From Desulfobacter vibrioformis DSM 8776 (GTDB lineage Bacteria > Desulfobacterota > Desulfobacteria > Desulfobacterales > Desulfobacteraceae), in the NCBI RefSeq assembly GCF_000745975.1, contig NZ_JQKJ01000015.1, positions 1 through 64,000 on the forward strand: a stretch of 64,000 bases of DNA. The letters are read 5' to 3'. This document shows positions 21,159-40,585 of this stretch, piece after piece. A program made the position numbers and the translations under genes. Position 1 is the first letter of the stretch; each line of letters begins with the position of its first letter. The notes under the pieces were generated by a model. That model saw nothing but the letters and a program-made list of their open reading frames with translations. It was not told the DNA's origin and ran no database searches.

Positions 21159-24100
21159 TTAATTTGTTTTAATATAGGTTTGAAATATTTTTTCATGGGA
21201 AATATATTTTTCCCGGCCAGGATCCTGGAGATAAAACCCGATGGCGTTGACCCGTTTGAGAATTTCGTTTTCGGCCCGTATTCTCATCATCTTTTTGGTC
21301 TGGATAATATTTTCTTTCAGATTATCCGTGTTTTCAGCGTCATAGTATCTTTCCGTCTTGTATTTTATTCTCTTTTCAATTAAGTCTTCGCGCATCTTAT
21401 TATGGGCCTCATCCAGGAACAGAACCTCTGGCATGAGGTCGGCAAAATGGGTTACGGCAATAATATCCTTGTCACGCTGCCAGTAGCCGATAAGAAATTC
21501 AGGCTCAAGATCCTCATAGTTCTGCAGCGGCATGTACATCCGCCTAAGATACAGCAGCACTTTTTCCGTTTTTTTCCGATGCCCGCCGATGATAACCGAA
21601 CCGCCGATTTCGTCCTTTTTAACCCCTTTGGTCCAGGGGGCCCCGGTGATGCCAAAGTCAATGCAAAGGGGAATCTGAAGCAAGACCGACATGGTGTTCA
21701 GGGCCAGGGCATACCCTGCTGACGGTCCGCCCACGTTGTAAGATGCGGATAACAGCTGGTGATGGATGGAATACCGCTGGAGGAAATCCCCGAACAGCCA
21801 GGGGATGCTGATATCCGGGCACAGGTTCTGGATATAGTTTTTCACCATGGTCAGGGCCTCCTGGGCCGACTGATTGGTCATTTTTACGGCCATGTCCATC
21901 TGGGCGGTCTGGGCCGAAGGCGTGGCCACGGCCCCGGTTACAATGATCGGCGCGTTTTCAACCCTGCCGGTCAGGCTGGTGGCAATGGGCAACAGCATTC
22001 CGGTCATGTCATTGGCTCCCACGCCAATAATAAAACCGACCTGGGGTTCCTGGCTCAGTTCGGTTTGTAAAAATTCGTTGAGCTGGATGGATCCTTTGCG
22101 CGTGGGACTTTGGGAAATTTCCCTTCTGGCGGATTCCAGGTGGGCCACAACAATGGGATAATCCTGTTCCCGGGTAATATGGTTCACACTTTCCAGGATC
22201 TTGTCGTAATGCTCCACAAAATTTTTCAGATCGTTTTTGATTTTGGATTTGATCAGGGGCGGGGCTTTAAGGGCATCAAGAATCCCCAGGACGGTTTTGA
22301 AATTAAGTTTGACAAAGTTATATTTTTCATCCCGGGTTGAGGATTTGAGATCCCGAAGTTTGAGCAGCACTTTAAACTCGGTGCTGCAAAGGGCAATGGC
22401 CTTTTGGGTAAATGATGTGTAGTCTGCCGGGGTATTGCAGATCCCCTGGGCTGTCTCTATAATTTTTTCCACCTCAAATTTTCGTTGGTGGGGAACATGT
22501 TCAAACTGCTTTTTGATGATTTCAAAAACATCCTTTTGCCGCATGTGTCCTGATATTTCAAGCGTTTTCAATCTTTTAGACCGGATCAGGGCAGGGTCCA
22601 GGATATCCAGACGGTTGGTGGTTAAGACGGTAAATACCTTATTCAAAGGGATTTCTCCGTCAATGATATTTAAAAATTTGTTGGTCAGGGCATCCGAAGG
22701 GTGGCCTCCGGTAGCGCTTCGTTTGGGGGCAAGCGCATCTCCCTCGTCAAAAAAGATCACCGTGGGGGCGATCATTTTTGCGATATCATACACTTTTTCA
22801 AGATTGGATACGGCGCCGTGCACAGGACTTGACGGATCCTGGAGAGCCGAGGGGCTTGTTGCAATATCATGGACCTGGGGATTGGAAGAAAGCCAGGTTC
22901 TGACCAGATAGGTTTTACCCGATCCCGGCGGGCCTGTGAGGACCACGCCTTTGTCTTCGCTGACCCCGTAATGAAAACAGTTGTTGGCCATCTCGGAGAA
23001 CTTATCCTTGATATCGCCCACATACGCCTCCCAGTTCAGGTTCCGGTCCATCTGGTCAACCACTTTGTCGTAAAGTTCGCCATACACATTTTTGGCCACC
23101 AGCTGGAAAGCCTGCCGGATCAGGACGGCATCATCCAGAAATTGAAGGACAAAATCCCCCTGTATGTTGATGATTGATTCAATGAGCTTTCTAACGTAAG
23201 CCGGGGTAATTTTCAGGCTTCTTTCCCTGAAAATGGCATAAATTTTATCTGCGGCATGGTCCAGTTGTTCCGAGTCCGGCTTAAATCTGGTGGGAATCTG
23301 GTAGCGCCGGATTTCAAGGATGATGATTTTTTTTAAGTTTTCCCGGTTCATCCAGTATTTTGAAATGTCGATGATCACGCCTTTTTCAACAAATCTGCGG
23401 TAGATGGCCGCGTCAAACCGGTGGGTCTGGTCACTGGTGGCAATAATAAAGCAGTCCCGTCTTCCGTCAATGATTTCGTCCAGGATAATGTTGGAGGTGT
23501 CAATCAGGGTCCTTTGCTGTTTTTCCACGCCATCACTTCCGCCTCCGGACCCGGACCCTGATTTTCCAAATGCCGAATGGGCCTCTTCAATGTGCCGGAT
23601 TGACGTGACCCTGGGATGGCCCATGGCCCGCTTAAAATAGTTGCCCGGTTCTCCTGACAGGGCGGTCTGGTAATCATTGGGCGTGATAACGGACATGTCC
23701 ACTAAAATACCTAACTCTTCAAAATCCGTCAGATTGTTCATGATCCGTTTTCTAAAGATCCGTTTAAGAATGGGGATTTTTGCCAGACGCAGATAAAAGT
23801 CGGTTTTCTTTTTTTTTGCGATCTGCATGGCAAACTCAGGGTCCACATCCTCAAGCTGGGTAAACAGGCTGTATTCACCTAAAATTTCGTTCTTCTTTTT
23901 TCGCCAGTCCACCGTGGGAATCACTTCGTTTCTAAATACCACTTTTTCAAGGGCTTCTCTTGCCGTAGCGCTTTTCCCCGAACCCGAAGTCCCTTCAATG
24001 AGCACGATGGGGGCTTTAGGAACATCCGGGTCTTCCAGGTGTTCTTTTCTGATATGAGCTTTGTAAATTTTTTCAAAGATTGTTTCTAACTCCACGGGGA

Positions 24101-24482
24101 CATGAAGGTCGGTCAGTTCTCTGTCCAGAACTGCGATAAGGTAATGGTATTCAGCCTTTGAAAGTTCTTTTTCAATGATCCTGTTCCAGGAGGCCGCAGG
24201 ATTGGTTTCCCCTGAATATAAAAATCTTTTTTTCCAGTCTGTCAGAATCTGGGGGTTATTGAGGACATTCATCCGTTTTTGTTTTCTTTTCATGAAAAAG
24301 GCAAAAAAGAAAAAATTTTTCAGCAAAGAGACCAAAGCGTTGGGCGGTCTGTACTGGTTGAGCCGGGACCTGACAAAGGCCTTGGTGTCATAGGTCCAGG
24401 TTTCCACCATGGATTCAATTTTATGAATGGCCTCTTCGGGCAGGGCAATATATTTTTTTTCTTTGGTATGTCGTTTGGCCAT
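21159..24482 (-). CDS. Tandem AAA+ protein with C-terminal Lon-like (S16) protease domain
   Basis: A 1107-residue protein. N-terminal hydrophobic patch 51-63 (LLKNFFFFAFF) followed by KRKQKR suggests membrane association. AAA module 1: Walker A GTSGSGKSAT (164-173), HIEEAH in the Walker B position, a GSGSGGGSDG linker (309-318). AAA module 2: GPPGSGKTYL (517-526), VIFFDEGDAL (575-584), sensor-1 TTNR and arginine-finger DPALIRSKRL. The C-terminal S16 domain has catalytic S921 in YNVGGPSAGYALAL; the dyad lysine region reads IGGHRKK, so the lysine would be R969 or shifted to K970. Not orthologous to LonA or LonB. Follows the SPFH gene by 83 bp with AAGGATG as RBS; probably its partner. Confidence 0.82.
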   Translation of the reverse strand: MAKRHTKEKKYIALPEEAIHKIESMVETWTYDTKAFVRSRLNQYRPPNALVSLLKNFFFFAFFMKRKQKRMNVLNNPQILTDWKKRFLYSGETNPAASWNRIIEKELSKAEYHYLIAVLDRELTDLHVPVELETIFEKIYKAHIRKEHLEDPDVPKAPIVLIEGTSGSGKSATAREALEKVVFRNEVIPTVDWRKKKNEILGEYSLFTQLEDVDPEFAMQIAKKKKTDFYLRLAKIPILKRIFRKRIMNNLTDFEELGILVDMSVITPNDYQTALSGEPGNYFKRAMGHPRVTSIRHIEEAHSAFGKSGSGSGGGSDGVEKQQRTLIDTSNIILDEIIDGRRDCFIIATSDQTHRFDAAIYRRFVEKGVIIDISKYWMNRENLKKIIILEIRRYQIPTRFKPDSEQLDHAADKIYAIFRERSLKITPAYVRKLIESIINIQGDFVLQFLDDAVLIRQAFQLVAKNVYGELYDKVVDQMDRNLNWEAYVGDIKDKFSEMANNCFHYGVSEDKGVVLTGPPGSGKTYLVRTWLSSNPQVHDIATSPSALQDPSSPVHGAVSNLEKVYDIAKMIAPTVIFFDEGDALAPKRSATGGHPSDALTNKFLNIIDGEIPLNKVFTVLTTNRLDILDPALIRSKRLKTLEISGHMRQKDVFEIIKKQFEHVPHQRKFEVEKIIETAQGICNTPADYTSFTQKAIALCSTEFKVLLKLRDLKSSTRDEKYNFVKLNFKTVLGILDALKAPPLIKSKIKNDLKNFVEHYDKILESVNHITREQDYPIVVAHLESARREISQSPTRKGSIQLNEFLQTELSQEPQVGFIIGVGANDMTGMLLPIATSLTGRVENAPIIVTGAVATPSAQTAQMDMAVKMTNQSAQEALTMVKNYIQNLCPDISIPWLFGDFLQRYSIHHQLLSASYNVGGPSAGYALALNTMSVLLQIPLCIDFGITGAPWTKGVKKDEIGGSVIIGGHRKKTEKVLLYLRRMYMPLQNYEDLEPEFLIGYWQRDKDIIAVTHFADLMPEVLFLDEAHNKMREDLIEKRIKYKTERYYDAENTDNLKENIIQTKKMMRIRAENEILKRVNAIGFYLQDPGREKYISHEKIFQTYIKTN

Positions 24483-24565
24483 TTATTCATCCTTACGCAT
24501 GGGTTAGATGTTCATTGAGAACTGTCCAGGCTACTTTATTTATACCCCCTTTGCAGGATATAAGT

Positions 24566-25501
24566 CTAATCTGAAACTGTGCTGTCTGCCGGGGAGGGCA
24601 GGGTGATTGCAGGGGGCTTTCCGCCGTCATGGAGTACAAAGGTTTTCTGGTTTGATTCGTTCTTTTCGTAGGCGGTGGCCCATTTTTGCTGGGTAAGAAA
24701 TTCAAACAAATCCGGGTTGACCCGTTGACCGTCCCGGCCGCCCAATGCAATATGGAGTGATTGAATGCCGTCAAGGTAGGCTTTGTAAAGTTTTTTAATC
24801 CTCTGGGCTTCCTGATCAGCGGCATAGTTGTCTGCCTCTGCGATGAGCTGTCGCCGCTTTTTCTCTTCCGTGGCCTTCACCAGCGTGTCGCCGAACCTTG
24901 TTTCGTTGAGAACAAAACTGACCACCTCAATGCCGTACTTTACTTCAAGGGTGGGGCCGTTTTTATTGATGGGCCGGTTTTTCAATGCATGAAAGATCTC
25001 TTCTTTTATGCTCTCCCTTTCCGAGATCAACTTGTTGACCTCTTTGCCCTGCAGGATATCCTTGGCAATTCCGTCGTAATCCCCCTGAAGCAGGATTTCA
25101 GGAGACAGGTTTTCAATGCCCCAGACTTTCAAATCTTTTATCCTGAACGTCATCAAGGCAGATGTCCACAGGGCCACGTTTTCCCGGGAAATAATTTTAA
25201 TGGGTTCAGCGGCACCGCCGATGTACATGTTCTGGTTCATTAAGGGAACCTCTTTTTCCAGCCGGGTAAAGAAAGGAAGCCTGAAGTGCCAGCCCAAATC
25301 GGTGACAGCCTGCCTTTTTCCGCCAAATTGTTCGAGAATAACAGCATAGTTGAATTTGACCTTGTAGATCACCTGGGTGGAATAGACCACAGCGGCCAAA
25401 GAATAAATCAGGGTGAGGCTGACCAGTAAAAATGCCAGCCTTCTCATCATGGTAAAAAATCGGGCTCGCTGCAAAAAAATCTGAGATTGCTGCTCCTTCA
25501 T
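24566..25501 (-). CDS. SPFH/band 7 (prohibitin-like) membrane protein
   Basis: A 311-residue protein with a single N-terminal transmembrane helix (about 18-42), a band-7 domain (VIYKVKFNYAVILEQFGGKRQAV.. GWHFRLPFFTRLEKEVPL) and a charged coiled region KATEEKKRRQLIAEADNYAADQEAQ typical of prohibitin/HflK-like oligomers. AAAGGAGAC precedes the ATG. It is the first gene of a two-gene operon with the Lon-like AAA protease. SPFH proteins cage and regulate membrane proteases (HflKC with FtsH), so by analogy this one probably scaffolds the protease. The window also has a separate HflKC pair and FtsH. Confidence 0.87.
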   Translation of the reverse strand: MKEQQSQIFLQRARFFTMMRRLAFLLVSLTLIYSLAAVVYSTQVIYKVKFNYAVILEQFGGKRQAVTDLGWHFRLPFFTRLEKEVPLMNQNMYIGGAAEPIKIISRENVALWTSALMTFRIKDLKVWGIENLSPEILLQGDYDGIAKDILQGKEVNKLISERESIKEEIFHALKNRPINKNGPTLEVKYGIEVVSFVLNETRFGDTLVKATEEKKRRQLIAEADNYAADQEAQRIKKLYKAYLDGIQSLHIALGGRDGQRVNPDLFEFLTQQKWATAYEKNESNQKTFVLHDGGKPPAITLPSPADSTVSD

Positions 25502-25905: not shown

Positions 25906-27387
25906 TTACGCAGTTACCTTGCGCATGCTGTTAATCAGATTATTTACCGAAACCGTTGCAATACCCGAATTAATATCCGACATGGCATAGGGAATGACCA
26001 GTTCATTACTATGGATGATTGAACCGCAGGAGTAGACAACGTTTGGAACATACCCTTCTCGCTCTTCCTCTGTGGGAGCCAAAAGCGGTTGTTCAAGCTG
26101 TGCAATGACCTTGCGCGGATTTTCAAGATCAAGAAGCATTGCACCAATACAGTATTCCCGCATGGGACCGACACCATGGGTAAGAACGATCCAGCCTTTC
26201 TCGGTCTCTATGGGAGAGCCGCAGTTGCCGATCTGGATAAATTCCCAGGGATACTCGGGTCGCTGGATAATATGAGAGGTCCTCCAGAAGTGCAGGTGTT
26301 TTGAAAACATAATATGGTTGTTTTCGCCATCCTGTCGGGACAGCATGGCAAATTGGCCGTTAATTTTCCGGGGAAACAGCGCAAACCCTTTATCTTGTGC
26401 CGCTTTTCCGTTCAGTATGGTAATTTTAAAACTGATAAAGTCTTTAGTTTCGATCAGTTGAGGGAGAATGGAAACCCCATTGTACGCCGTATAGGTTGCA
26501 TAATAGGTTGTTTCACCATTATCATCAACAAACTGAACAAACCGTGCATCTTCTATCCCGCGGCTCTCATTTTTAGAAACAGGAAAGATAACCCGCTCGG
26601 ATATGCGGTGATCTGAATGGAAATCCACCTCATAATTTGAATCAGAAAGCCAGTTGATGATCTCAAATGTTTTATTCTGCTTGTTTTGGGTAAAATGAGG
26701 ATGTTTATGAAGCTTTCCCATCTCACTGACCAATTGCGCCTTGCTGAATTCTTCGGGAAGGGCATTGAGAACATGGGTGCAGATATCATTATCCGCGTTC
26801 ATTTCCTTGAGCTTGTGCTGAAAAATTTTGCGCTTGTAGAAAGGGTTTAACTTCAGATCCGGTGTTTCCACAAACTCACTGATATGATCAAACCGGAAGG
26901 TGTTGTACCGGTTCAGCACGCCGCTTCTGAAAACAATGGAGGAAATATGGCCCTCTCCGGTGGCCCGCAAACTCATGACAAACCGGATGCTGTCCTTTTC
27001 AAGATTGTCTTGGATGGGATGCGGAACAATGGATGGATTGAACAAAGCAGCAGACTCAATGGCATACTCCTTTGTAAAATAAGCGCCGATCAATGCGCTT
27101 TCAGGCTCACTGAACAGGGTGCCTTTCTTAATATGTTTTTTTACCAGGCTGAAGTGTCGTTCGAAAATGTAAGCCAGGTCTTCATGTCGCCTGGAAAAAT
27201 TTTTCATGATTTGTGTTAATAATTTTTGTTGTTCGCTTGCAGTCAGCCCGCGGATTCGTTCGATGATCAAAGTGATGCGTCTGGTATCATCGGGAATATG
27301 GGGCCTTGTAATTACACGGGAGGTATCCCCGACAATTTTATTGGGTTTTCTTGTCACGATAAGTTTGCCATAGCTTTTTTTTTGCAC
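25906..27387 (-). CDS. GH130 family protein (mannoside phosphorylase-like), long form
   Basis: A 493-residue protein. The N-terminal ~110 residues are helical and unassigned; the rest is a five-bladed beta-propeller of glycoside hydrolase family 130, with the conserved RGIEDARFV motif carrying the proposed catalytic aspartate. Later landmarks are GNCGSPIETEKGWIVLTHGVGPMREY and EREGYVPNVVYSCGSI. GH130 enzymes phosphorolyse or hydrolyse beta-mannosides. Start is a GTG at 27387 with GAGGAAA upstream. Last gene of a five-gene glycan operon, directly following a shorter paralogue. Substrate is inferred only at family level. Confidence 0.87.
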   Translation of the reverse strand: MQKKSYGKLIVTRKPNKIVGDTSRVITRPHIPDDTRRITLIIERIRGLTASEQQKLLTQIMKNFSRRHEDLAYIFERHFSLVKKHIKKGTLFSEPESALIGAYFTKEYAIESAALFNPSIVPHPIQDNLEKDSIRFVMSLRATGEGHISSIVFRSGVLNRYNTFRFDHISEFVETPDLKLNPFYKRKIFQHKLKEMNADNDICTHVLNALPEEFSKAQLVSEMGKLHKHPHFTQNKQNKTFEIINWLSDSNYEVDFHSDHRISERVIFPVSKNESRGIEDARFVQFVDDNGETTYYATYTAYNGVSILPQLIETKDFISFKITILNGKAAQDKGFALFPRKINGQFAMLSRQDGENNHIMFSKHLHFWRTSHIIQRPEYPWEFIQIGNCGSPIETEKGWIVLTHGVGPMREYCIGAMLLDLENPRKVIAQLEQPLLAPTEEEREGYVPNVVYSCGSIIHSNELVIPYAMSDINSGIATVSVNNLINSMRKVTA

Positions 27388-27415
27388 AGGTGTATTTCCT
27401 CAATTTAATTGGGGG

Positions 27416-28357
27416 CTACATGGGTGGACGACCCGATTGAAGACATAGAGAGACAAGGTCACAGATTTTTGCAGTACCCATGCACATCACCGTATCCGCT
27501 CCCCCCCAGTAGATTTTCACAGTCCCGTCATCTTCGGCAACAGCACCGCAGCTAAATACCACATTGGGGACATAGCCGGTCTGTTCCCAGACATCTTCCG
27601 GCTGCAGGATCCATTGATCAGACACCCCGAGCACCCTGGCCGGGTCGGCAAGATCATGCAGCGCTACCCCAAGCCGGTATACGGTTCCGGACATGGTTTT
27701 GAAAACACCATGAAAGATATGAAGCCAGCCATCATCGGTTTTAAAGGGCGGGGTGCCCGGACCGATTTTCATCTCATCCCAGTGGTAGGATAACGGTTTG
27801 ATGACAACTTGTGAGTCCCCCCAGTAAATCAGGTCCGGGGAATAGGAAATCCAGATGGACCAGGGAGAAATTTCCGAGTGCGGACGATCCAGACGGACAT
27901 ACCTGCCATTAATTTTTTCAGGAAAAATAACCACATTACGCAGATCTGCCTGGGTGATCAAGGCAATGCGTTCAATTTTTTTAAAATCATATGTACGGGC
28001 CAGGGCAATGCGAACCCCGTGGCGGGAATAGGCACTGTAAGTGAGAAGGTATGATCCTTCAACCGGGTTGATGCGCAGGTCTTCAACCCCAAAGGCTTCA
28101 TATTCGGCAAAAGGGCCTTGGGATGCCGGAGTCAAAAAAGGTTCCGGCAAAACTTTGAAAGTAAACCCATCCGGACTGTCCGCTCTTCCGATAATGGACC
28201 GCCCGTTTTTCAAGTGGGCCCGGAAAAGCATGATATAGCGGTTCTTATATTTGATTACCCCGGCATTGTGAACCGTTGCAACGGGATACGGTACATCCTC
28301 CCGGGTCAGAATGGGGTTCTTCAGGTAACGCATGACAATATCCTGGATCGTGTTCAT
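27416..28357 (-). CDS. GH130 family protein (mannoside phosphorylase-like), short form
   Basis: A 313-residue GH130 beta-propeller, the usual length. Conserved motifs: NAGVIKYKNRYIMLFRAHL, FGVEDLRI (catalytic aspartate), GPGTPPFKTDDGWLHIFHG, GYVPNVVFSCGAV and IYWGGADTV. Family members use phosphate to release mannose-1-phosphate from beta-1,4- or beta-1,2-mannosides. It lies 19 bp after the GT4-cupin gene and 28 bp before the longer GH130 gene, so all are co-transcribed. Together with two glycosyltransferases it suggests turnover of a mannose-containing oligosaccharide. Confidence 0.9.
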   Translation of the reverse strand: MNTIQDIVMRYLKNPILTREDVPYPVATVHNAGVIKYKNRYIMLFRAHLKNGRSIIGRADSPDGFTFKVLPEPFLTPASQGPFAEYEAFGVEDLRINPVEGSYLLTYSAYSRHGVRIALARTYDFKKIERIALITQADLRNVVIFPEKINGRYVRLDRPHSEISPWSIWISYSPDLIYWGDSQVVIKPLSYHWDEMKIGPGTPPFKTDDGWLHIFHGVFKTMSGTVYRLGVALHDLADPARVLGVSDQWILQPEDVWEQTGYVPNVVFSCGAVAEDDGTVKIYWGGADTVMCMGTAKICDLVSLCLQSGRPPM

Positions 28358-28376
28358 TTGGGTCCTTTCTCATGGG

Positions 28377-29729
28377 TCAGATTCTTCCGAAATCATCGGC
28401 CAGACGTTCAATATCATCTTCGCCAAAATAATCTCCCGTTTGAATCTCCATAAATACCAGGTTGTCCTGGCCGCTGTTTTCAATTCTGTGGATGGATTTT
28501 CTCGGAATATCAACGGATTGCCCGGCAATCACCGGAACCGTTTTATCGCCGAGTGTCCACATGCCGTTACCGCTGACGATATACCAGTGCTCATCGCGAT
28601 ACTGGTGACGCTGGAGACTCAGGCGCTTTCCCGGATACACCACAATTTTTTTATTCTTAACGGTATTCTCATCGGAAAGTATTCTATAAAACCCCCAGGG
28701 GCGATGATCTTCACGTTTGGTTGTCTCCATGATCTGCTCATACACCCGGATATAGTTTTTGACCATGCAGTCGATGGTAAAACGATCCTCCACTGTTCGC
28801 CGGCAGAATTCCCGGTCAATGTCCCTGATACGTTCCACCGCGCTGATGGCCTCATGGGTGCCGGAAACAAGAAATCCGTTTTTATTGTCCTGGATAAGCT
28901 CGGGCATACTGCCCCGGTTGTTTGCGATCACCGGGGTGCCGCAGGCCATGGCTTCGATAACGGAAAGGCCAAAAGGTTCGTTGAAATTGATGGGGTGGAG
29001 CAGTGCATGGGCTTTGCCCAGAAGTTTATTCCTTTTTTCAGGTTCAACACTGCCAAGATAAACCACATTGGCATCGTCAATGAACGGCTGGATATAGTCT
29101 TTAAAATAGGCACTGTCCTGAATAATTCCTGCCATGATCAGTCTTCTGTGACATGCCCGGGCGATTTCAATGGCCTCTTTAGCGCCTTTATCCGGGTGGA
29201 AACGACCGAAAAACAACAGATAATCTTCCGGGTCCGTATGAAACTGAAATTCTTTTATATCTATGCCGTGGTGAATGGTGTCAATATAATTGAGGCCCTC
29301 TGCCCGGTCAGCATCACTGATGGAAACATAGAATGTTTTTTTATTGTATTTGCGATACACCGGTAAAATTCCGGGGGATGAAAAACCGTGGATGGTTGTC
29401 ACCACAGGCGTCCTGGTAAGGCCGGTATAGGTTAGGGGGAGAAAATCAAAGTTATTGTGAATGATATCAAACTCTTCTGCATGATCAAATAACTCAGAGA
29501 TGTGGAGGCATTCATATACTTTGGGAATGATCTTTGAATCCTCTTCATATCCCCGGGTGCACACGGCACGCAGGGTGCTGTGTGTAATCGAATCTCCTGT
29601 CGCAAACAGCGTGACGTCATGGCCAAGTCCCACCAGGGCTTCGGTCAGCAATGAGGCGACTTTTTCCCAGGGGCCGTAGTGCCGTGGCGGGGTGCGCCAG
29701 GCAATGGGGGACAACATGGCAATACGCAT
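28377..29729 (-). CDS. GT4 glycosyltransferase fused to phosphomannose-isomerase-type cupin
   Basis: A 450-residue fusion. Residues 1-335 are a GT-B family 4 transferase (MRIAMLSPIAWRTPPRHYGPWE, FFGRFHPDKGAKEAIEIA, FNEPFGLSVIEAMACGTPVIA). Residues about 340-450 match the C-terminal mannose-6-phosphate isomerase cupin of ManC-type proteins: RPWGFYRIL, YPGKRLSLQRHQYRDEHWYIVSG and SVDIPRKSIHRIENSG. One of the metal histidines of the usual QMHHH motif is changed (QRHQY). The fusion couples mannose-phosphate supply or sensing to glycosyl transfer, which fits the adjacent GH130 genes. The donor sugar (GDP-mannose?) is inferred. Confidence 0.87.
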   Translation of the reverse strand: MRIAMLSPIAWRTPPRHYGPWEKVASLLTEALVGLGHDVTLFATGDSITHSTLRAVCTRGYEEDSKIIPKVYECLHISELFDHAEEFDIIHNNFDFLPLTYTGLTRTPVVTTIHGFSSPGILPVYRKYNKKTFYVSISDADRAEGLNYIDTIHHGIDIKEFQFHTDPEDYLLFFGRFHPDKGAKEAIEIARACHRRLIMAGIIQDSAYFKDYIQPFIDDANVVYLGSVEPEKRNKLLGKAHALLHPINFNEPFGLSVIEAMACGTPVIANNRGSMPELIQDNKNGFLVSGTHEAISAVERIRDIDREFCRRTVEDRFTIDCMVKNYIRVYEQIMETTKREDHRPWGFYRILSDENTVKNKKIVVYPGKRLSLQRHQYRDEHWYIVSGNGMWTLGDKTVPVIAGQSVDIPRKSIHRIENSGQDNLVFMEIQTGDYFGEDDIERLADDFGRI

Positions 29730-29758
29730 AAAATTTTCCTTTATATTTACCCTGTTGA

Positions 29759-32053
29759 TCAGGGTGAAGACTGATGCAGCAGTTCATCGGCATAGAGTTT
29801 TTGCAGTGTCATTAACGATAACAGCCAGGCAAGCGTTGATTCAGCTCCCTGGTTCTGGTTGATGCCGTCCACCATGAGTCCGTCCCGGCATCCGCCGGTT
29901 TTCGGGTCATACAGCGGCATGTTCAGATCATTGTGCCCCAGAAACCAGTTAAAACACATCACGGTATTTTCAAACCATTGCCGGTCATGGGAAATGCTGT
30001 AGGCTGCGGCACATGCTTCAACCATGGTTTTGGCTTCTATTGGCTGCTGATCAAACCTGGATCTTTCCCCCTTTTTTTTATACCAGCCGTTACAGCCGAT
30101 GGGGGCAAAATGGTGATCTGCCGTCTGGATGGAAAACAGCCATGAAAGACTGTCCAAACCCATCTTCACCATCTCGTGATTTTCCATGCGATGGCCGGAT
30201 ACCAGAAGGGCATGGGGCAGTTTGGCATTGGCATAGCTCAGGGTCTCCTCTATCCATGGCCACTCATCTGTTTTATTTTCGCAAAACTGATTGAACAATC
30301 GTTCTGCCAGAACATCTCTGATCCGTTTGGCATCACTGTCACCGGAAAATTTTTCCAGGTAGGCATCCAGGCCCACCAGACAGAATGAGATGGCCCGGGG
30401 CGATCTGAAATTTTCTGCGGCAATCAATGCCTTTTTAAAAAGGATGGTGCTCATGGCCAGGTGATCTGAATTTTCCAGAAACGCCACGGTTTTTCCCAGG
30501 CACCAGACGGCCCGTCCGTGGGAATCCTCGGACCCGGTCTCCTCAGCCCACACTCTTGCATAGGTCATAAAATTACGAAACCGGCCGTTTGTTTCATTGT
30601 ATGCGTATAAAAGAAATCCCAGATAATGGCCGCTTAAGGCATCCAGTCCAAGGCCGTTGGTCGGCAGATATCTTTGTCCCATGGCCGCCGCCAGCAGGGC
30701 TCTGGCATTATCATCCGTGCAGTATCCATGCAATCGGTTGGGAATGGTATGATCTGCATGCTGTAGCATGCCGGTGTCATCGGTCATGGATTTCAGGTGA
30801 TCCAGCTTGATCTCGGGCAGGTCAAAGCGGGTAATGGCTTTGATGTTTTCCACATAGGAATGTCTGGGTCTTGGATGCCGGATTCGCTTCTGACGGACCT
30901 CATTGAAGAGGTCAAGATAGTTCTGGCAGACTTTTTCCCACACAGCTTCCCTTGTGAAGGTGTATGCTTTTTTGCGGATGGCATGCCGCTGGGTATCATC
31001 GCATAAAAGTGCATTGATCTGTTCTGCCATGGCACTGGGATTGTTGAACGGTACGATTTTACCCCTGCCGTGTGCCAGCATTTCCTCTGCATACCAGTAA
31101 GGGGTTGAAATAACAGCTTTACCTGTTCCCATGGCATAGGCAAGGGTTCCTGAAGTAATCTGTGCCTTTTCAAGATACGGGGTGATGTAAATATCTGCAA
31201 TGCCCAGAAATTCACACAGCTCTTTCAACGGGACAAAATTATTCCGGAATATAACATGGTCGCTGAGATTCAGATTGTGAACAATTTGCTGGAGCATTAT
31301 CCGGTAGGCTTCCCCTCTGGTTTTCAGCACATGGGGATGGGTGGTGCCAAGGATGATATACATCACTTCGGGGTATCTGTCGATCACAGCCGGAAGTGCC
31401 TGCAGAACGGTTTCAATTCCTTTGTTGGGTGAGAGCAGGCCAAAGGTGAGTAAGACCTTTTTTCCTTCCACGTCGAATTTGTCTTTATGAAAACTTGAAT
31501 CGATAAAAGGCATATCCGGAATGCCATGGTGTATAAAAGCGATTTTCTCCCGGGGAATACCATATATCTCCTGGAGAAATTGTTCTGCTTTTCTACTCAT
31601 GACCACCAGTTTGTCTGACAATTCCCCCAGTTTGATCATGACGTTACGATATTCGGAAGAAGGATCTTTCAGCACGGTATGCAGTGTTGTCACCACCGGC
31701 ATCTGCAGATCTGACAGCAGCTTGAGAAGATGGCTGCCGGCCGGTCCCCCGAAAATACCGAATTCATGCTGGAGACAGACAATATCGGTGTGACTGATAT
31801 TCAAAAATTGGGCGGCAATACCGTAATCAGCCAATTTATTCTGATTGATCTCAAAGCGGACTTTTTCAGGATAGGCATATCCTTTTATTCTGTCGTTCAT
31901 GGCAACGGCCCAGCAATGGATATCCCTGGCCCGGTCAGACAAACCTTCAACCAGATCTCTTGTAAACGTTGCGATGCCGCATTGTCTGGGCAGGTAATTG
32001 CCGATGACGGCAATGGAGTTGATCCCCTTAACGGGGCGTTCTTTCGGTATCAT
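29759..32053 (-). CDS. GT4 glycosyltransferase with C-terminal alpha/alpha-barrel-like domain
   Basis: About 764 residues. N-terminal half is a GT4 glycosyltransferase (IAVIGNYLPRQCGIATFTRDL, LQHEFGIFGG, LTFGLLSPNKGIETVLQALP, ITPYLEKAQITSGTLAYAMG, GKAVISTPYWYA). The C-terminal ~350 residues (MTDDTGMLQHA, RLHGYCTDDNARALLAA, SHGRAVWCLGK, IEAKTMVEACAAAYS) look like an (alpha/alpha)6-toroid seen in glycosidase-like proteins. The open frame extends to a TTG at 32152, but the ATG at 32053 has AGGGAGAG upstream and begins just before the conserved domain. Operon with the GT4-cupin and GH130 genes. Likely builds or remodels the same glycan. Confidence 0.85.
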   Translation of the reverse strand: MIPKERPVKGINSIAVIGNYLPRQCGIATFTRDLVEGLSDRARDIHCWAVAMNDRIKGYAYPEKVRFEINQNKLADYGIAAQFLNISHTDIVCLQHEFGIFGGPAGSHLLKLLSDLQMPVVTTLHTVLKDPSSEYRNVMIKLGELSDKLVVMSRKAEQFLQEIYGIPREKIAFIHHGIPDMPFIDSSFHKDKFDVEGKKVLLTFGLLSPNKGIETVLQALPAVIDRYPEVMYIILGTTHPHVLKTRGEAYRIMLQQIVHNLNLSDHVIFRNNFVPLKELCEFLGIADIYITPYLEKAQITSGTLAYAMGTGKAVISTPYWYAEEMLAHGRGKIVPFNNPSAMAEQINALLCDDTQRHAIRKKAYTFTREAVWEKVCQNYLDLFNEVRQKRIRHPRPRHSYVENIKAITRFDLPEIKLDHLKSMTDDTGMLQHADHTIPNRLHGYCTDDNARALLAAAMGQRYLPTNGLGLDALSGHYLGFLLYAYNETNGRFRNFMTYARVWAEETGSEDSHGRAVWCLGKTVAFLENSDHLAMSTILFKKALIAAENFRSPRAISFCLVGLDAYLEKFSGDSDAKRIRDVLAERLFNQFCENKTDEWPWIEETLSYANAKLPHALLVSGHRMENHEMVKMGLDSLSWLFSIQTADHHFAPIGCNGWYKKKGERSRFDQQPIEAKTMVEACAAAYSISHDRQWFENTVMCFNWFLGHNDLNMPLYDPKTGGCRDGLMVDGINQNQGAESTLAWLLSLMTLQKLYADELLHQSSP

Positions 32054-32158
32054 ATTCTCTCCCTGTTCCGGTTGTGGGCAGCAGGGTGACATCATTTTCC
32101 CTTTTGCTGCCCCAATCCGTTTTTTCTTGTGAAACTTTTTTTCAACAGTCAAACGGAG

Positions 32159-33418: not shown

Positions 33419-35290
33419 TCATGAGTTCATCATTGCTCTAAGCTCGTCCCCCCGGACGGTTTCCTGTTTGGAGAGAAGTGCCGCCAGCTTATCCAGCAAC
33501 GCCCTTTTGTTTGAAAGGATCTTGTGTACCCGCCGATGGGCTTCTTCCATCATCAAGGAGACCTCTTCATCAATCCGGGCAGAGCTTTCATCACTGTAAT
33601 TTTTTTCGGAAGAATAGCCCTGGGGCAGAAACATGGGGGTTCGCTGCCGCTCATAACTCACAAGACCTATCCGGTCACTCATGCCGTATTCCGCCACCAT
33701 GGACCGGATAATATCTGTTGCCCGCTGGAGGTCGTTCTGGGCACCGGTGGATATTTCATTAAATACCAGTTCCTCTGCCACTCTGCCCCCCAGAAGTACT
33801 GCCAGCCGATCGAGCAATTCAGAACGTGTCATCAAATATCTGTCTTCCGTAGGCTGCTGCTGTGTGTATCCCAGCGCTGCGATCCCCCTGGGAAGAATGG
33901 ATATTTTATGGACAGGATCGGCAAGGTTAACCGATTCAGCGACAATGGCATGGCCGGACTCATGAAATGTAACAATCTCTTTTTCATGGGCATTCATCAC
34001 CCGGTTCTTTTTTTGAAGCCCCCCGATCACCCGGTCGATGGCCTCGTCAAAATCGCTGGATTCCACGACTTCCTTGTTGCTTCTGGCCGCCAGCAGGGCA
34101 CTCTCATTGACAATATTCGCAAGATCCGCACCCACAAAACCGGGCGTTCGGCCGGCAATTTTTCCTAAGTCCACATCATCACCCAGCACCACATGTCTGG
34201 AATGGATTTTCAGAATCGCTTCCCGGCCGTTGATATCCGGACGATCCACCAGGACCTGCCGGTCCAGGCGGCCCGGTCTTAAGAGTGCCGGATCCAAAAT
34301 TTCGGGCCGGTTGGTGGCAGCCATGATAATGACCCCTTTATTGGTACCAAAACCATCCATCTCCACCAAAAGCTGGTTCAATGTCTGCTCCCGTTCGTCA
34401 TGGCCTCCCATGGCATTCATTCCCCGGGCTTTGCCCAGGGCATCCAGTTCGTCGATAAAGATGATACATGGGGCCTGGCCGGCTGCCTGGGAGAAAAGAT
34501 CGCGAACCCTTGCCGCGCCGACCCCCACAAACATCTCCACAAACTCTGATCCGTTGATGCTGAAAAACGGCACCTTTGCTTCACCGGCCACCGCCTTTGC
34601 CAGCAACGTTTTGCCGGTTCCCGGCGGTCCCACCAGAAGGACGCCTTTGGGGATTCTTCCGCCCAGTTTCTGAAATTTTTCCGGTGTGGTTAAAAAATCA
34701 ACCACCTCTTCGAGCTCCTCACGGGCTTCGTCAATGCCGGCCACATCTTCAAAAGAGATCTTGGTGTCACTTTCTGCAAAAATCTTGGCCTTATTTTTAC
34801 CAAAGGACATCACCCCCATGCCGCCGCCCATATTTTTTGCGGTAAACCGCCAGATCAGGAAAAAAAACCCGAGGGGCAGAACCCAGGATAGAAGGTAACC
34901 CCAGAATCGGTTCTCCGTTCGGCCGGCATAACGGATATTGCGTTCATCCATCTCTTTTGCTAGGCCCGGATCATTCACCCGGACGGTAACAAATTTTTGT
35001 CCCGGTGTTCCCCGGAGCATGCCTTCAATCGTCTCAGGACTGATTACGATGTCATCCACATTGCCCTCAGCCATGGACTGCTTGAACTGACTGTAGGGGA
35101 TCGTTTGTCTCTTGGGAGCAAAAAAAGGCTGCTGCAGAAAGACAAGCCCACAAAAAATAATCATAACGGTCCAGATGTTTAAGAACGGTTTTGGAGCCCC
35201 AGGTTTCTTATCTGATTTTGATTCTGTTCCGGCAAACAGGCTGCGCAATTTCTCCTGGATGGCTTTTAACGGGTTTGGTTTGTTTGACAT
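33419..35290 (-). CDS. ftsH: ATP-dependent zinc metalloprotease FtsH
   Basis: Membrane-anchored AAA protease that degrades misassembled membrane and short-lived cytosolic proteins. About 623 residues: TM helix 1 in [15 protein letters not shown], periplasmic segment, TM helix 2 in [20 protein letters not shown] domain with GPPGTGKT and [19 protein letters not shown], and zinc site HESGHA with the downstream aspartate region. ATG 35290 (MSNKPNPL) is chosen with AAGGA 10 bases upstream; the longer frame needs a TTG at 35311. The remnant GGDEF frame overlaps its first 25 bases. HflK/HflC, its usual regulators, are encoded 3 kb away on the other strand. Confidence 0.95.
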
Positions 35291-35619
35291 AGGGAGATCC
35301 TTTTTGAGCAATCATGCACAACGCAATTTCTGCCGTTGGACTTGGCCTTGTATAAGTGTTTATCTGCTTTCGAGATCCAGGAAAGAAAACTGTTATGGGA
35401 GCTCTTTTTAACCTGGCCCTGGGTAACCCCGATACTGATGGTCACAAAAATGTCGTCCGGTCTGGATTCTTCCACCTCTTTCCGGATTTTCTCAGCCATC
35501 CGCGGCACAGCAGAGGCGTGGATGTCGGGAAACAGGATGACAAATTCTTCCCCGCCATACCGGCACAGCACATCTGATTTCCGGACATCCCTTCCAAAGA
35601 TTTCGCAACACTTAATGAC
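35266..35619 (-). pseudogene. GGDEF (diguanylate cyclase) C-terminal remnant
   Basis: The minus frame reads VIKCCEIFGRDVRKSDVLCRYGGEEFVIL and continues through ISIGVTQG and ADKHLYKAKSNGRN, the second half of a GGDEF domain including the active-site GGEEF. The first half of the domain (the DxxxFKxxND region) and any sensor module are missing. The homology begins abruptly at GTCATTAAG (35611-35619), where it meets a fragment of another gene. The 3' end runs into the first bases of ftsH. Not expected to be a working cyclase. Confidence 0.85.
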
Positions 35620-38531: not shown

Positions 38532-39581
38532 TTGACTGAAGAGAATACCCCGCCGGGGGGATCCAAACCGGCGTTAAATGGCGTGCTGAAGGAAATTCTA
38601 CAGCAGTTTAATAAATTCAAAGGCGGTCCGATCCTCATCCTTGTCGTTGGCGTGATAGTGGTGGTTTTATGGACTTCATGGTTCACCGTCCAACCTGAGG
38701 AAACAGGGATTGTACAGCGCTTCGGCAAGGTCATGCGCACGGCCGGTCCGGGATTGCATTTCAAATTGCCTTATGGTATCGAAACGGTCCGTCTGCTGCC
38801 CACGGCTCGCGTGCTCAAAGAAGAGTTCGGGTTTCGGACGGTCTCGGTTTCCACCGTTCCCGGTCAAAAAACCCGTTATGATTCACGCGGCAACTACAAG
38901 GACGAGTCACTGATGCTCACCGGGGATCTGAACGTCATTGACGTTCGGTGGATCGTCCAGTACCGCATCGAAGACCCGATCCGCTACCTGTTCCAGGTCC
39001 GCGACACTTCAAAAACAATTCGCGACACGACCGAGGCGGTCATGCGCCGTGCGGTCGGCAACCGTCTGGGCAGCGATGTACTGACCACCGGACGGGTGGC
39101 AGTGGCCAGTGAAGCCAAAAACGAAATTCAGAAAATCCTGACAACCTATGAGTCAGGCGTACGTCTGGTTACCGTGGAACTTCAGGATGTGACCCCGCCG
39201 GATACCGTAAAACCGGCCTTTAATGAAGTCAATGAGTCGCGTCAGGACAAAGAGCAAACGATCAATAAAGCCCAGGAACAGGCCAACCGGGAAATCCCCA
39301 AAGCCCGGGGGGTGGCGACCCAAAGCATCAGTGAGGCCGAAGGTTACGCACTGGAACGCGTAAACCGGGCCAAAGGTGAGGCCAACCGTTTTGAGGCCAT
39401 TTTAGGACAATACGAACAGGCACCGCAGGTGACGCGCCGGCGGCTGTATCTGGAGGCCATGACCGGTTTCCTGTCAGACATGAAAGGACTTTATATCGTG
39501 GATAAGGACCAGAAGGCCATGGTGCCCTGGCTCCCATTGGAATCCAGTGGGCAACCATCCGCACAAGGGGGAAAACCATGA
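38532..39581 (+). CDS. hflK: HflK-like SPFH membrane protein
   Basis: HflK forms, with HflC, a periplasm-facing cage around FtsH and controls access of membrane substrates. 349 residues: short proline-rich cytoplasmic N-terminus, one TM helix (about 33-54), band-7 domain (FTVQPEETGIVQRFGKVMRT.GPGLHFKLPYGIETV), and a coiled tail with INKAQEQANREIPKARG. Start is TTG 38532 with GGAGG seven bases upstream. HflC overlaps by 4 bp. Base composition is clearly more GC-rich than the flanking genes, hinting at separate acquisition. Confidence 0.92.
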   Translation: MTEENTPPGGSKPALNGVLKEILQQFNKFKGGPILILVVGVIVVVLWTSWFTVQPEETGIVQRFGKVMRTAGPGLHFKLPYGIETVRLLPTARVLKEEFGFRTVSVSTVPGQKTRYDSRGNYKDESLMLTGDLNVIDVRWIVQYRIEDPIRYLFQVRDTSKTIRDTTEAVMRRAVGNRLGSDVLTTGRVAVASEAKNEIQKILTTYESGVRLVTVELQDVTPPDTVKPAFNEVNESRQDKEQTINKAQEQANREIPKARGVATQSISEAEGYALERVNRAKGEANRFEAILGQYEQAPQVTRRRLYLEAMTGFLSDMKGLYIVDKDQKAMVPWLPLESSGQPSAQGGKP

Positions 39582-40585
39582 AGTTTACCTTGAAAGCAGC
39601 AGCCCTTGCAATAGCGATGGCGATCGGTATCGTACTCTATGGCGGTCTATATACATTGGAAGAGGGTCTGCAGGCCATTATCGTGCAGTTTGGCCGGCCT
39701 GTTGGGGAACCGGTTACCGAGGCTGGGCTGCACATGAAACTGCCCTTTGTGCAGGAGGTCCGGCGATTCGAAAAGCGTCTGCTGGTCTGGGACGGAGATC
39801 CGAACCAGGTTCCCACCAAGGGGCGCGAGTTCATTTGGGTGGATACCACGGCCCGATGGCGGATTTCCGATGCGAAAAAATTTCTGGAAAATGTGGCCAG
39901 CGAAAAAGGGGCCCAGTCGCGCTTGAATGATATTCTCGATTCAGTGGTACGCGACCAGGTGTCAAGCAGCGAACTCGTTGAACTCGTGCGCAGCGCATCG
40001 TGGGAAGTGCCCGAGGGCGAGGCCCTGAAGGAGATACCAAAGGAGCGCGAAGAGGAACTTAAAAGGGAGATTGCCCGGGGCAGGGAGGAGATCACCCGAA
40101 CAATACTGACTGAAGCACAGAAGATCATCCCGCAATACGGCATTGAACTTGTGGATTTGCGCATCAAGCGCCTCGACTACGTTGAAAGCGTCCGTGAAAA
40201 GGTCTATGAGCGCATGATTTCCGAGCGCAAGCGCATTGCTGCGCAGTTCCGTTCCGAAGGCGAGGGACGCAGCGCCGAGATCCTCGGCACAATGGAAAAA
40301 GAGCTGCGCCAGATTCGCTCAACAGCTTACCGCCAGGTGCAGGAGGTCCAAGGCAAAGCCGACGCTGAAGCTACGCAAATCTATGGCCACGCGTACAATA
40401 AAAATCCGGAATTCTACGCCTTTTTGCGCACCCTTGAAAGCTACAAGGAAAAAACGAATAAGAATTCCGTACTGATTCTCACCACGGACAGCGACTTTTA
40501 TCAATATATCAAACAGGCGAGCCCAGGGGGAAAAAGCCGGGGTTTTCCATCGAAAGAGGCGTCAAGGACGGAGACAAAGAACTGA
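39578..40585 (+). CDS. hflC: HflC-like SPFH membrane protein
   Basis: Partner of HflK. 335 residues with an N-terminal TM helix (about 5-25), band-7 domain (YTLEEGLQAIIVQFGRPVGEPVTEAGLHMKLP), an ERKRIAAQFRSEGEGRSAEI helix and a C-terminal YAFLRTLESYKEK segment, all typical of HflC. The ATG overlaps the hflK stop as ATGA, showing translational coupling. A charged, possibly disordered tail (SPGGKSRGFPSKEAS) ends it. FtsH, the expected client, is encoded at 33.4-35.3 kb rather than in the same operon. Confidence 0.93.
   Translation: MKFTLKAAALAIAMAIGIVLYGGLYTLEEGLQAIIVQFGRPVGEPVTEAGLHMKLPFVQEVRRFEKRLLVWDGDPNQVPTKGREFIWVDTTARWRISDAKKFLENVASEKGAQSRLNDILDSVVRDQVSSSELVELVRSASWEVPEGEALKEIPKEREEELKREIARGREEITRTILTEAQKIIPQYGIELVDLRIKRLDYVESVREKVYERMISERKRIAAQFRSEGEGRSAEILGTMEKELRQIRSTAYRQVQEVQGKADAEATQIYGHAYNKNPEFYAFLRTLESYKEKTNKNSVLILTTDSDFYQYIKQASPGGKSRGFPSKEASRTETKN

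Follow-up and report, generated by a model that had tools for sequence, protein, structure and literature searches.

The reason for the association between SPFH proteins and AAA proteases is still debated, and most work on it has dealt with FtsH-type enzymes. A 64,000-nucleotide stretch of the Desulfobacter vibrioformis DSM 8776 genome, a 4.47-Mb draft in 86 contigs, raises the question for a Lon-type protease. On the minus strand of this stretch (contig NZ_JQKJ01000015.1, positions 1 to 64,000; hereafter the window), a gene for a 311-residue SPFH protein is followed by one for a 1107-residue protein in which two AAA modules precede a Lon-type (S16) domain at the C-terminus. A first-pass annotation of the window had described this arrangement and proposed that the two products act together; both open reading frames (ORFs) lie where it placed them (Table 1), with 83 bp (24483–24565) between the SPFH stop codon and the protease start codon. 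Do the two genes belong together, and if so, what do they encode? The data presented here define a sharply delimited two-gene module, which most likely encodes an undescribed SPFH-organised Cdc48–Lon protease.

Co-inheritance of the SPFH and protease genes

The pair is found in some sulfate-reducing bacteria and their relatives. Among fetched relatives, the SPFH gene lies upstream of the protease gene on the same strand in 28 of 30 loci (the window's included), and the other two loci begin at contig ends. A sample of 395 genomes from the phylum contained the protease (E ≤ 1e-100) in 12, again counting the window's, with the SPFH gene adjacent in 12/12. We also scanned named genomes, the sole scan covering other phyla, and took the best 80 of 341 relatives. 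The SPFH gene was adjacent in 73 of these 80 loci; the remaining seven have 0–106 bp upstream. The closest named genomes among the 80 are Desulfobacter latus and D. postgatei, whose homologues are 93% identical to the window's protease.

Distinct proteins from these sources were then pooled (L009–L130 and L152–L198; L001–L008 and L131–L151, being other genes or repeats, were excluded), giving 115 loci. The SPFH gene is directly upstream on the same strand in 102, with a median gap of 5.5 bp. The two genes are often 2–5 bp apart or overlapping; because ORF starts were set at the first start codon, the computed overlaps (reaching -302) are the largest possible. Proteases regularly occurring without the SPFH gene had been named beforehand as evidence that would count against a partnership. 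The 13 loci that lack an adjacent SPFH gene comprise 10 cut by contig ends (≤106 bp upstream) and three broken genes (L193, L197 and L198).

Genome-wide counts gave the same picture. In the window's order, 291 sampled genomes divided into 54 with both genes, 232 with neither, none with only the SPFH gene and five with only the protease. Thus, the protease occurs in 59/291 and the SPFH gene in 54/291, all 54 among the 59 (Fisher p = 2e-53, uncorrected for relatedness; the handles shown are identical, from which we take both scans to cover one set of 291 genomes). The five protease-only genomes are G014, which holds a remnant, G673, in which the gene is broken, and G481, G519 and G608, in which it lies at a contig end. 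In four further genomes (G458, G517, G547 and G611) the pair is split across contigs, and in the three of these that were fetched (G458, G547 and G611) the protease stretch begins at a contig end. A second class (that of G183; 58 near-complete genomes, none of the window's order) behaved alike, with both genes in the same 11/58 genomes and neither in 47; all seven newly fetched loci from this class are adjacent and on the same strand. No intermediates were seen: at thresholds of 1e-12 for the protease domain and 1e-25 and 1e-15 for the SPFH protein, every non-fragment match scored above 400 bits, so that in this phylum both families have sharp limits.

Presence is patchy even within genera. 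The pair occurs in one of six sampled genomes of genus g71, and some relatives in the window's genus (G004), g14 and g21 lack both genes, a pattern suggesting that the pair is lost and transferred together. A third gene of the unit was not found among the 80 named loci, whose flanks are very unequal. The surroundings of the pair vary: apart from the SPFH gene, no neighbour keeps its place in more than 14 of these loci, a lower bound since many flanks are short; the neighbour clustering used here put the SPFH gene in 65 of these loci, versus 73 by profile. Sequence divergence in one protein tracks that in the other (r = 0.89, 102 pairs), as is also expected from common descent, so this was not counted as evidence of contact. 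In a plasmid collection, 82 records matched, with AAA pieces only and none covering 80% of the query. Of 20 candidate stretches from a viral-contig collection, none was confirmed; this search did not extend to the phage record collection. We conclude that the genetic partnership of the two genes, with co-inheritance that has no intact exception in the sampled genomes and adjacency that is fixed across two classes, is close to certain. It strongly supports the functional pairing that the first-pass annotation had proposed.

Some irregular copies were observed. L197 (in G014) and L198 (in G013) are decayed protease copies; G014 holds only this remnant, without an SPFH match, and G013 additionally holds a full-length protease copy with its SPFH gene. 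The protease frame of L193 (in G673) begins mid-gene, beside a different SPFH-like gene with zinc-ribbon ends (judged by eye), and reflects either a chimeric contig or a real truncation. A second copy of this SPFH family lies on another contig of one genome (G551:C43:422-1327).

Architecture of the two proteins

The second AAA module of the protease (D2) is readily recognized. Pfam AAA (PF00004) matches residues 513–639 with E = 1.8e-25. Among solved structures, D2 is a classic AAA module nearest Cdc48/p97 (whole-sequence E = 1.5e-37, best stretch 500–702), and profile comparison gave 3e-16 for FtsH versus 2.2e-6 for the AAA module of LonA. D1 is divergent: PF00004 does not match it separately, and its profile matches are weak (1.2e-5 to D2, 1.9e-4 to FtsH). 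Its assignment as an AAA module is based on motif invariance and fold. The D1 ATPase residues listed in Table 1 are identical in 102/102 homologues, the window's own included, as are those of D2, and residues 123–463 of an AlphaFold2 model align with p97 N-D1 at Z 15.9 (root-mean-square deviation, rmsd, 3.9 over 229 residues). Foldseek aligned the protease model with Cdc48 over about 700 columns, gaps included. The model, built from 16 sequences, is middling overall (mean predicted local distance difference test, pLDDT, 68.2; predicted template modelling score, pTM, 0.48) and low at residues 481–520 and in the Lon domain, and the VIA-align matches span mainly residues 9–795. Model confidence in D2 is low, so the assignment of that module rests on sequence.

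Position 275 is hydrophobic (L, Y or W) in 102/102 homologues and position 554 (V, I, W, L or Y) in 101/102; we take these to be pore loops, by comparison with AAA motifs. Neither protein of the pair reaches the cut-off of any NCBIfam model, the CDC48 and Lon equivalogs falling far below theirs (86.9 bits versus 802.65 for the CDC48 family, TIGR01243). A role in anti-phage defence was also considered. PADLOC matches fall on the AAA modules (IetA and TRIP13 on D2, mad8 on D1 and, weakly, MkoA), with none for the SPFH protein; the mad8 match (window 23559–24026, minus strand; residues 153–308, E = 8.6e-10) reflects AAA likeness. We do not claim a defence role for the pair. Overall, the motors are better described as Cdc48/p97-like, or classic AAA, than as Lon-type AAA.

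D1 carries a long insertion, with 129 residues from K170 to E299. Residues 226–252 have a net charge of +5 to +11 in 102/102 sequences (mean 7.4). A transmembrane anchor of the LonB kind was not seen here, as the best 19-residue hydropathy within residues 205–262 was at most 1.12 in the 102 sequences. An amphipathic membrane helix was also considered and dropped: the hydrophobic moment is ordinary, with 587/1090 reference windows at least as high. What remains is a basic surface.

Sequence profiles identify the C-terminal domain as S16-like, as the first-pass annotation had it. The Pfam Lon_C match on residues 803–977 is weak (23.5 bits versus a cut-off of 21.1; 26.4 bits in another search). 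With the family profile, the best solved structures were archaeal LonB protease domains (1xhk, E = 2.2e-6; 1z0b, 2e-5). An hhalign comparison of the family with LonA from the same genome (E = 1.3e-5, probability 80.5) brought S921, in a GGPSAG motif, and K971 into register with the LonA serine and lysine. Both are invariant in the 99/99 sequences with a residue there (3/102 have gaps), and they are also kept where overall identity is only ~48%. The domain has features of its own. Serine and lysine are 50 positions apart, versus 43 in the genome's own LonA (49 versus 42 residues between), and the longer spacing recurs in 7/7 extra sequences from the second class; a separation of exactly 42 residues is given for LonA and LonB in the available text of PMC9569914. 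The residue three before the serine is Gly, where LonA has an acid. The residue just before the serine is Pro as in LonA, and the closest solved relatives are nonetheless LonB. With its LonA-like proline, LonB-closest structures and longer spacing, this Lon-type domain fits none of the subfamilies tested. The LON N-terminal substrate-binding domain is not among the best 25 of 28 Pfam families at E ≤ 0.1. At residues 791–870, pLDDT is ~28–37, too low to judge a Lon fold; no Lon structure is among the VIA-align matches listed for the model, and this was not counted against the domain. Elsewhere, the genome has six LonA-sized ORFs (711–817 residues) with strong Lon_C matches, on contigs C1, C3, C5, C13, C48 and C65 of G000 (L001–L006), which seems many for one genome, and two weaker matches (L007 and L008).

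The first-pass annotation had also proposed that a hydrophobic N-terminal patch tethers the protease to the membrane, and this part of its interpretation did not hold. The patch (~residues 50–64, hydrophobic by eye) has a best 19-residue hydropathy of 1.21 in the window's protein, and residues 40–80 reach the threshold of 1.6 in only 3/103 aligned rows (the window's protein being present twice), so it is not a conserved transmembrane anchor. Hydropathy of 1.6 is reached somewhere in the protease in 59/103 rows; the reference protease stays below it, peaking at 1.55 in a stretch that begins at residue 925, next to the catalytic serine within the Lon domain. Lacking a conserved N-terminal transmembrane helix, the protease is probably a soluble hexamer that is brought to the membrane. 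A ribbon-helix-helix DNA-binding domain at the N-terminus, suggested by a predicted strand-helix-helix, was dropped: eight members searched against Pfam gave one irrelevant weak match, and a profile search of the PDB gave none.

The SPFH protein, by comparison, is a single-pass membrane protein, as first described. One N-terminal transmembrane helix (hydropathy >1.6) is predicted in 102/102 measurable rows. Pfam Band_7 (PF01145) matches residues 48–232 with E = 8e-14 (52.5 bits versus a cut-off of 23.6), and the model (pLDDT 72.7, pTM 0.50) shows this helix, an SPFH domain and a long helix. Foldseek matched it to stomatin, prohibitin and HflK/C at E 2e-13 to 1e-11. VIA-align gave Z 14.5 for human prohibitin (rmsd 12.5, 224 aligned) and Z 14.0 for the stomatin SPFH domain (rmsd 1.8, 108 aligned), and the two methods group the protein with stomatin, prohibitin, HflK/C and QmcA. 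A profile search of solved structures ranked QmcA (E = 0.0016) and stomatin (0.0019) nearest, both weakly; a single-sequence search of solved structures found none at E ≤ 0.1. The protein has no TIGR01933 or TIGR01932 match (NCBIfam, E ≤ 0.1), whereas the window's real HflK and HflC do. Lysine and arginine are commoner before the transmembrane helix than after it in 88/103 rows and fewer in two, which suggests that the N-terminus is inside and the SPFH domain outside, as in HflC. In the 21-residue tail, R12 is kept in 101/101 rows with a residue there, residue 20 is R or K in 100/101, and most rows have two basic residues ahead of the helix. The C-terminal end, FLTQQKWATAYEKN, is also conserved. 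The genome holds eight Band_7 matches in all, and a second adjacent Band_7 pair lies at G000:C1:311634-313255.

Possible modes of partnership

How might these proteins work together? Probably, we think, as one functional unit, consisting of a membrane-anchored SPFH ring and an ATP-dependent, Cdc48-type tandem AAA/Lon Ser–Lys protease. The SPFH protein would form a ring, probably homo-oligomeric, that marks a patch of the inner membrane. The protease hexamer would be recruited to the cytoplasmic face of this ring, perhaps with the conserved SPFH tail and the basic insertion of D1 as contacts. There, clients in the membrane or associated with it would be pulled and unfolded by D1 and D2 and then cut by the Lon domain. 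Several points weigh against such a unit. If the SPFH domain is periplasmic, contact would be limited to ~21 residues. With no conserved N-terminal transmembrane helix, the protease cannot sit inside the ring as FtsH does. The model of the protease domain is unreliable. Deep sampling was confined to the window's own phylum.

Co-inheritance also fits a shared pathway without contact. The SPFH protein could organise a membrane domain, and the protease, on its own in the cytoplasm, could deal with the same stress or client; the operon would then serve only to co-express them. This would account for a protease without a conserved membrane anchor and would sit easily with the small contact area expected if the SPFH domain is periplasmic; moreover, each of the 102 paired loci has the SPFH match and the protease match on two different ORFs, so no fusion argues for contact. 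Yet no intact sampled genome has one gene without the other, and the adjacency, often with gaps of 2–5 bp or with overlaps (the latter being upper bounds), fits coupled synthesis of partners, without proving it. We regard a shared pathway as credible but unlikely.

Alternatively, the ring could be the substrate of the protease rather than its scaffold, with the protease controlling ring turnover, disassembly or trimming. Cdc48-like motors disassemble complexes. There is also a report from archaea of a ClpP-like protease whose gene neighbours an SPFH gene and which cuts its partner's C-terminus (PMC13086221, in a passage citing Yokoyama and Matsui 2005). Conservation at the C-terminus of the SPFH protein speaks against the tail being disposable, and we consider this reading improbable. 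Still harder to credit is a Lon domain that is a non-proteolytic remnant, which would make the protein a Cdc48-like remodelling ATPase. The low Lon_C score, the seven extra residues between serine and lysine and the glycine in place of an acid are in its favor, but against it stand both catalytic residues, invariant in 99/99 sequences and kept in proteins as diverged as these. We judge this very improbable, and a proteolytic unit organised by the SPFH protein remains the reading that we prefer.

Features of the locus and known systems

Table 1. Features of the SPFH–protease pair, with window coordinates
Feature	Position	Strand	Basis
SPFH (Band 7) gene, 311 aa, upstream member	24566..25501	-	ORF; Pfam Band_7 8e-14; Foldseek stomatin/prohibitin/HflK/C
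SPFH residues 1–21, conserved short tail at the N-terminus (FLQRA...RR), predicted to lie in the cytoplasm; candidate for docking	25439..25501	-	R12, residue 20, K+R bias
SPFH residues 22–41, transmembrane helix	25379..25438	-	hydropathy >1.6 in 102/102 measurable rows; model helix 3–41
SPFH residues 45–205, SPFH domain	24887..25369	-	Pfam; model; VIA-align
SPFH residues 206–252, long helix as in ring-forming SPFH proteins	24746..24886	-	model, block pLDDT 59–69
Tandem-AAA Lon-type protease gene, 1107 aa, downstream member	21159..24482	-	ORF; homologues
D1 AAA module, residues 123–467 (Walker A K170, Walker B E299/E300, R362/R363)	23082..24116	-	invariant residues; p97 D1 fold
D1 insertion between Walker motifs, residues 190–262, strongly basic, candidate surface contact	23697..23915	-	charge
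D2 AAA module, residues 478–770 (Walker A K523, Walker B D579/E580, R634/R637)	22173..23051	-	Pfam AAA; invariant residues; p97 match
Lon-type protease domain, residues 775–1022	21417..22160	-	Lon_C; 1xhk; hhalign to own LonA
Catalytic serine codon, S921 in GGPSAG	21720..21722	-	99/99 sequences with residue there; 7/7 further
Catalytic lysine codon, K971, four residues past GG pair as in LonA	21570..21572	-	99/99 sequences with residue there

Upstream of the pair, 25906–32152 of the window (minus strand) holds glycosidase/phosphorylase-like and glycosyltransferase-like ORFs (named by eye) that are apparently unrelated to it. In 11–14 of the 80 named loci, a set comprising FloA-like, NfeD and long NfeD-ClpP genes (by eye) lies downstream of the protease on the opposite strand (exemplars L072:13927-14901, L067:15068-15538 and L062:15365-16834, all minus strand), so that in such loci two SPFH–protease sets are neighbours.

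The window also encodes FtsH (33419–35311, minus strand) and HflK and HflC (38532–39581 and 39578–40585, plus strand), as the first-pass annotation had noted, apart from the pair. FtsH–HflK/HflC and the mitochondrial m-AAA–prohibitin system likewise associate an AAA protease with an SPFH family membrane protein, and their HflK/C and prohibitin partners likewise have one N-terminal transmembrane helix and the same predicted fold as this SPFH protein. HflK/C rings enclose FtsH (available sections of PMC9020784 and PMC12048511). FtsH differs from the protease described here in that it is a zinc enzyme, has a single AAA module and brings transmembrane helices of its own, whereas the latter has two AAA modules and no conserved N-terminal transmembrane helix. 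The HEXXH motif, present as HESGH in the window's FtsH, is found in 0/102 family sequences. FtsH–HflKC also has two SPFH genes, versus one here, directly adjacent to the protease gene.

The Lon proteases (LonA, LonB, LonC and LonBA) share the Lon-type domain with its Ser–Lys dyad but have a single Lon-type AAA+ module and a spacing of 43, in contrast to the two classic AAA modules and spacing of 50 seen here. The available text of PMC9569914 places the one AAA+ module of LonA, LonB and LonC in the HCLR clade and the membrane anchor of LonB between Walker A and B, the same place that the basic insertion occupies in D1. A 2008 survey of S16 architectures includes Sigma54_activat-AAA-Lon_C and Mg_chelatase forms, with two ATPase-type matches each, and AAA-AAA-Lon_C is not among the Table 3 entries in the available part (PMC2605481). 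No description of an SPFH–Lon pair or of a tandem-AAA Lon protease appeared in the literature searched, with most subscription journals outside it. The tandem D1–D2 motor is shared with Cdc48/p97 and the archaeal and actinobacterial Cdc48-like ATPases. Actinobacterial Cpa, for example, works with a separate proteasome (available text of PMC6017811). The protein described here differs from ATPases of this type in carrying its own protease domain.

SPFH–NfeD operons combine a ClpP-type protease domain with other SPFH subfamilies, whereas the present pair has a Lon domain; we know of no AAA motor in these operons. They include long NfeD proteins with a ClpP domain, as in P. horikoshii PH1510/PH1511, and so represent a conserved SPFH–protease gene link (PMC2636767). 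The same survey, which covers prokaryotic SPFH proteins, reports that SPFH3, 4 and 6–12 had no NfeD partner, and the whole word 'Lon' does not occur in its text.

The pair is best read as following a logic parallel to that of FtsH–HflKC, built from other parts. It may even be a third SPFH–protease machine, beside FtsH–HflKC/prohibitin and NfeD–ClpP, an idea to which we give not quite even chances. In such a machine, a homomeric SPFH ring would recruit a self-contained Cdc48–Lon hexamer, one polypeptide would both extract and degrade at an SPFH-defined membrane patch, and the pair would move and be lost as a unit within the phylum. An SPFH partner with genetic ties to an unrelated, Lon-type protease would indicate that the partnership arose more than once, and would separate the role of the SPFH ring from that of FtsH. 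A Cdc48-type tandem motor fused to a protease would likewise be a natural one-chain version of the Cdc48–proteasome arrangement.

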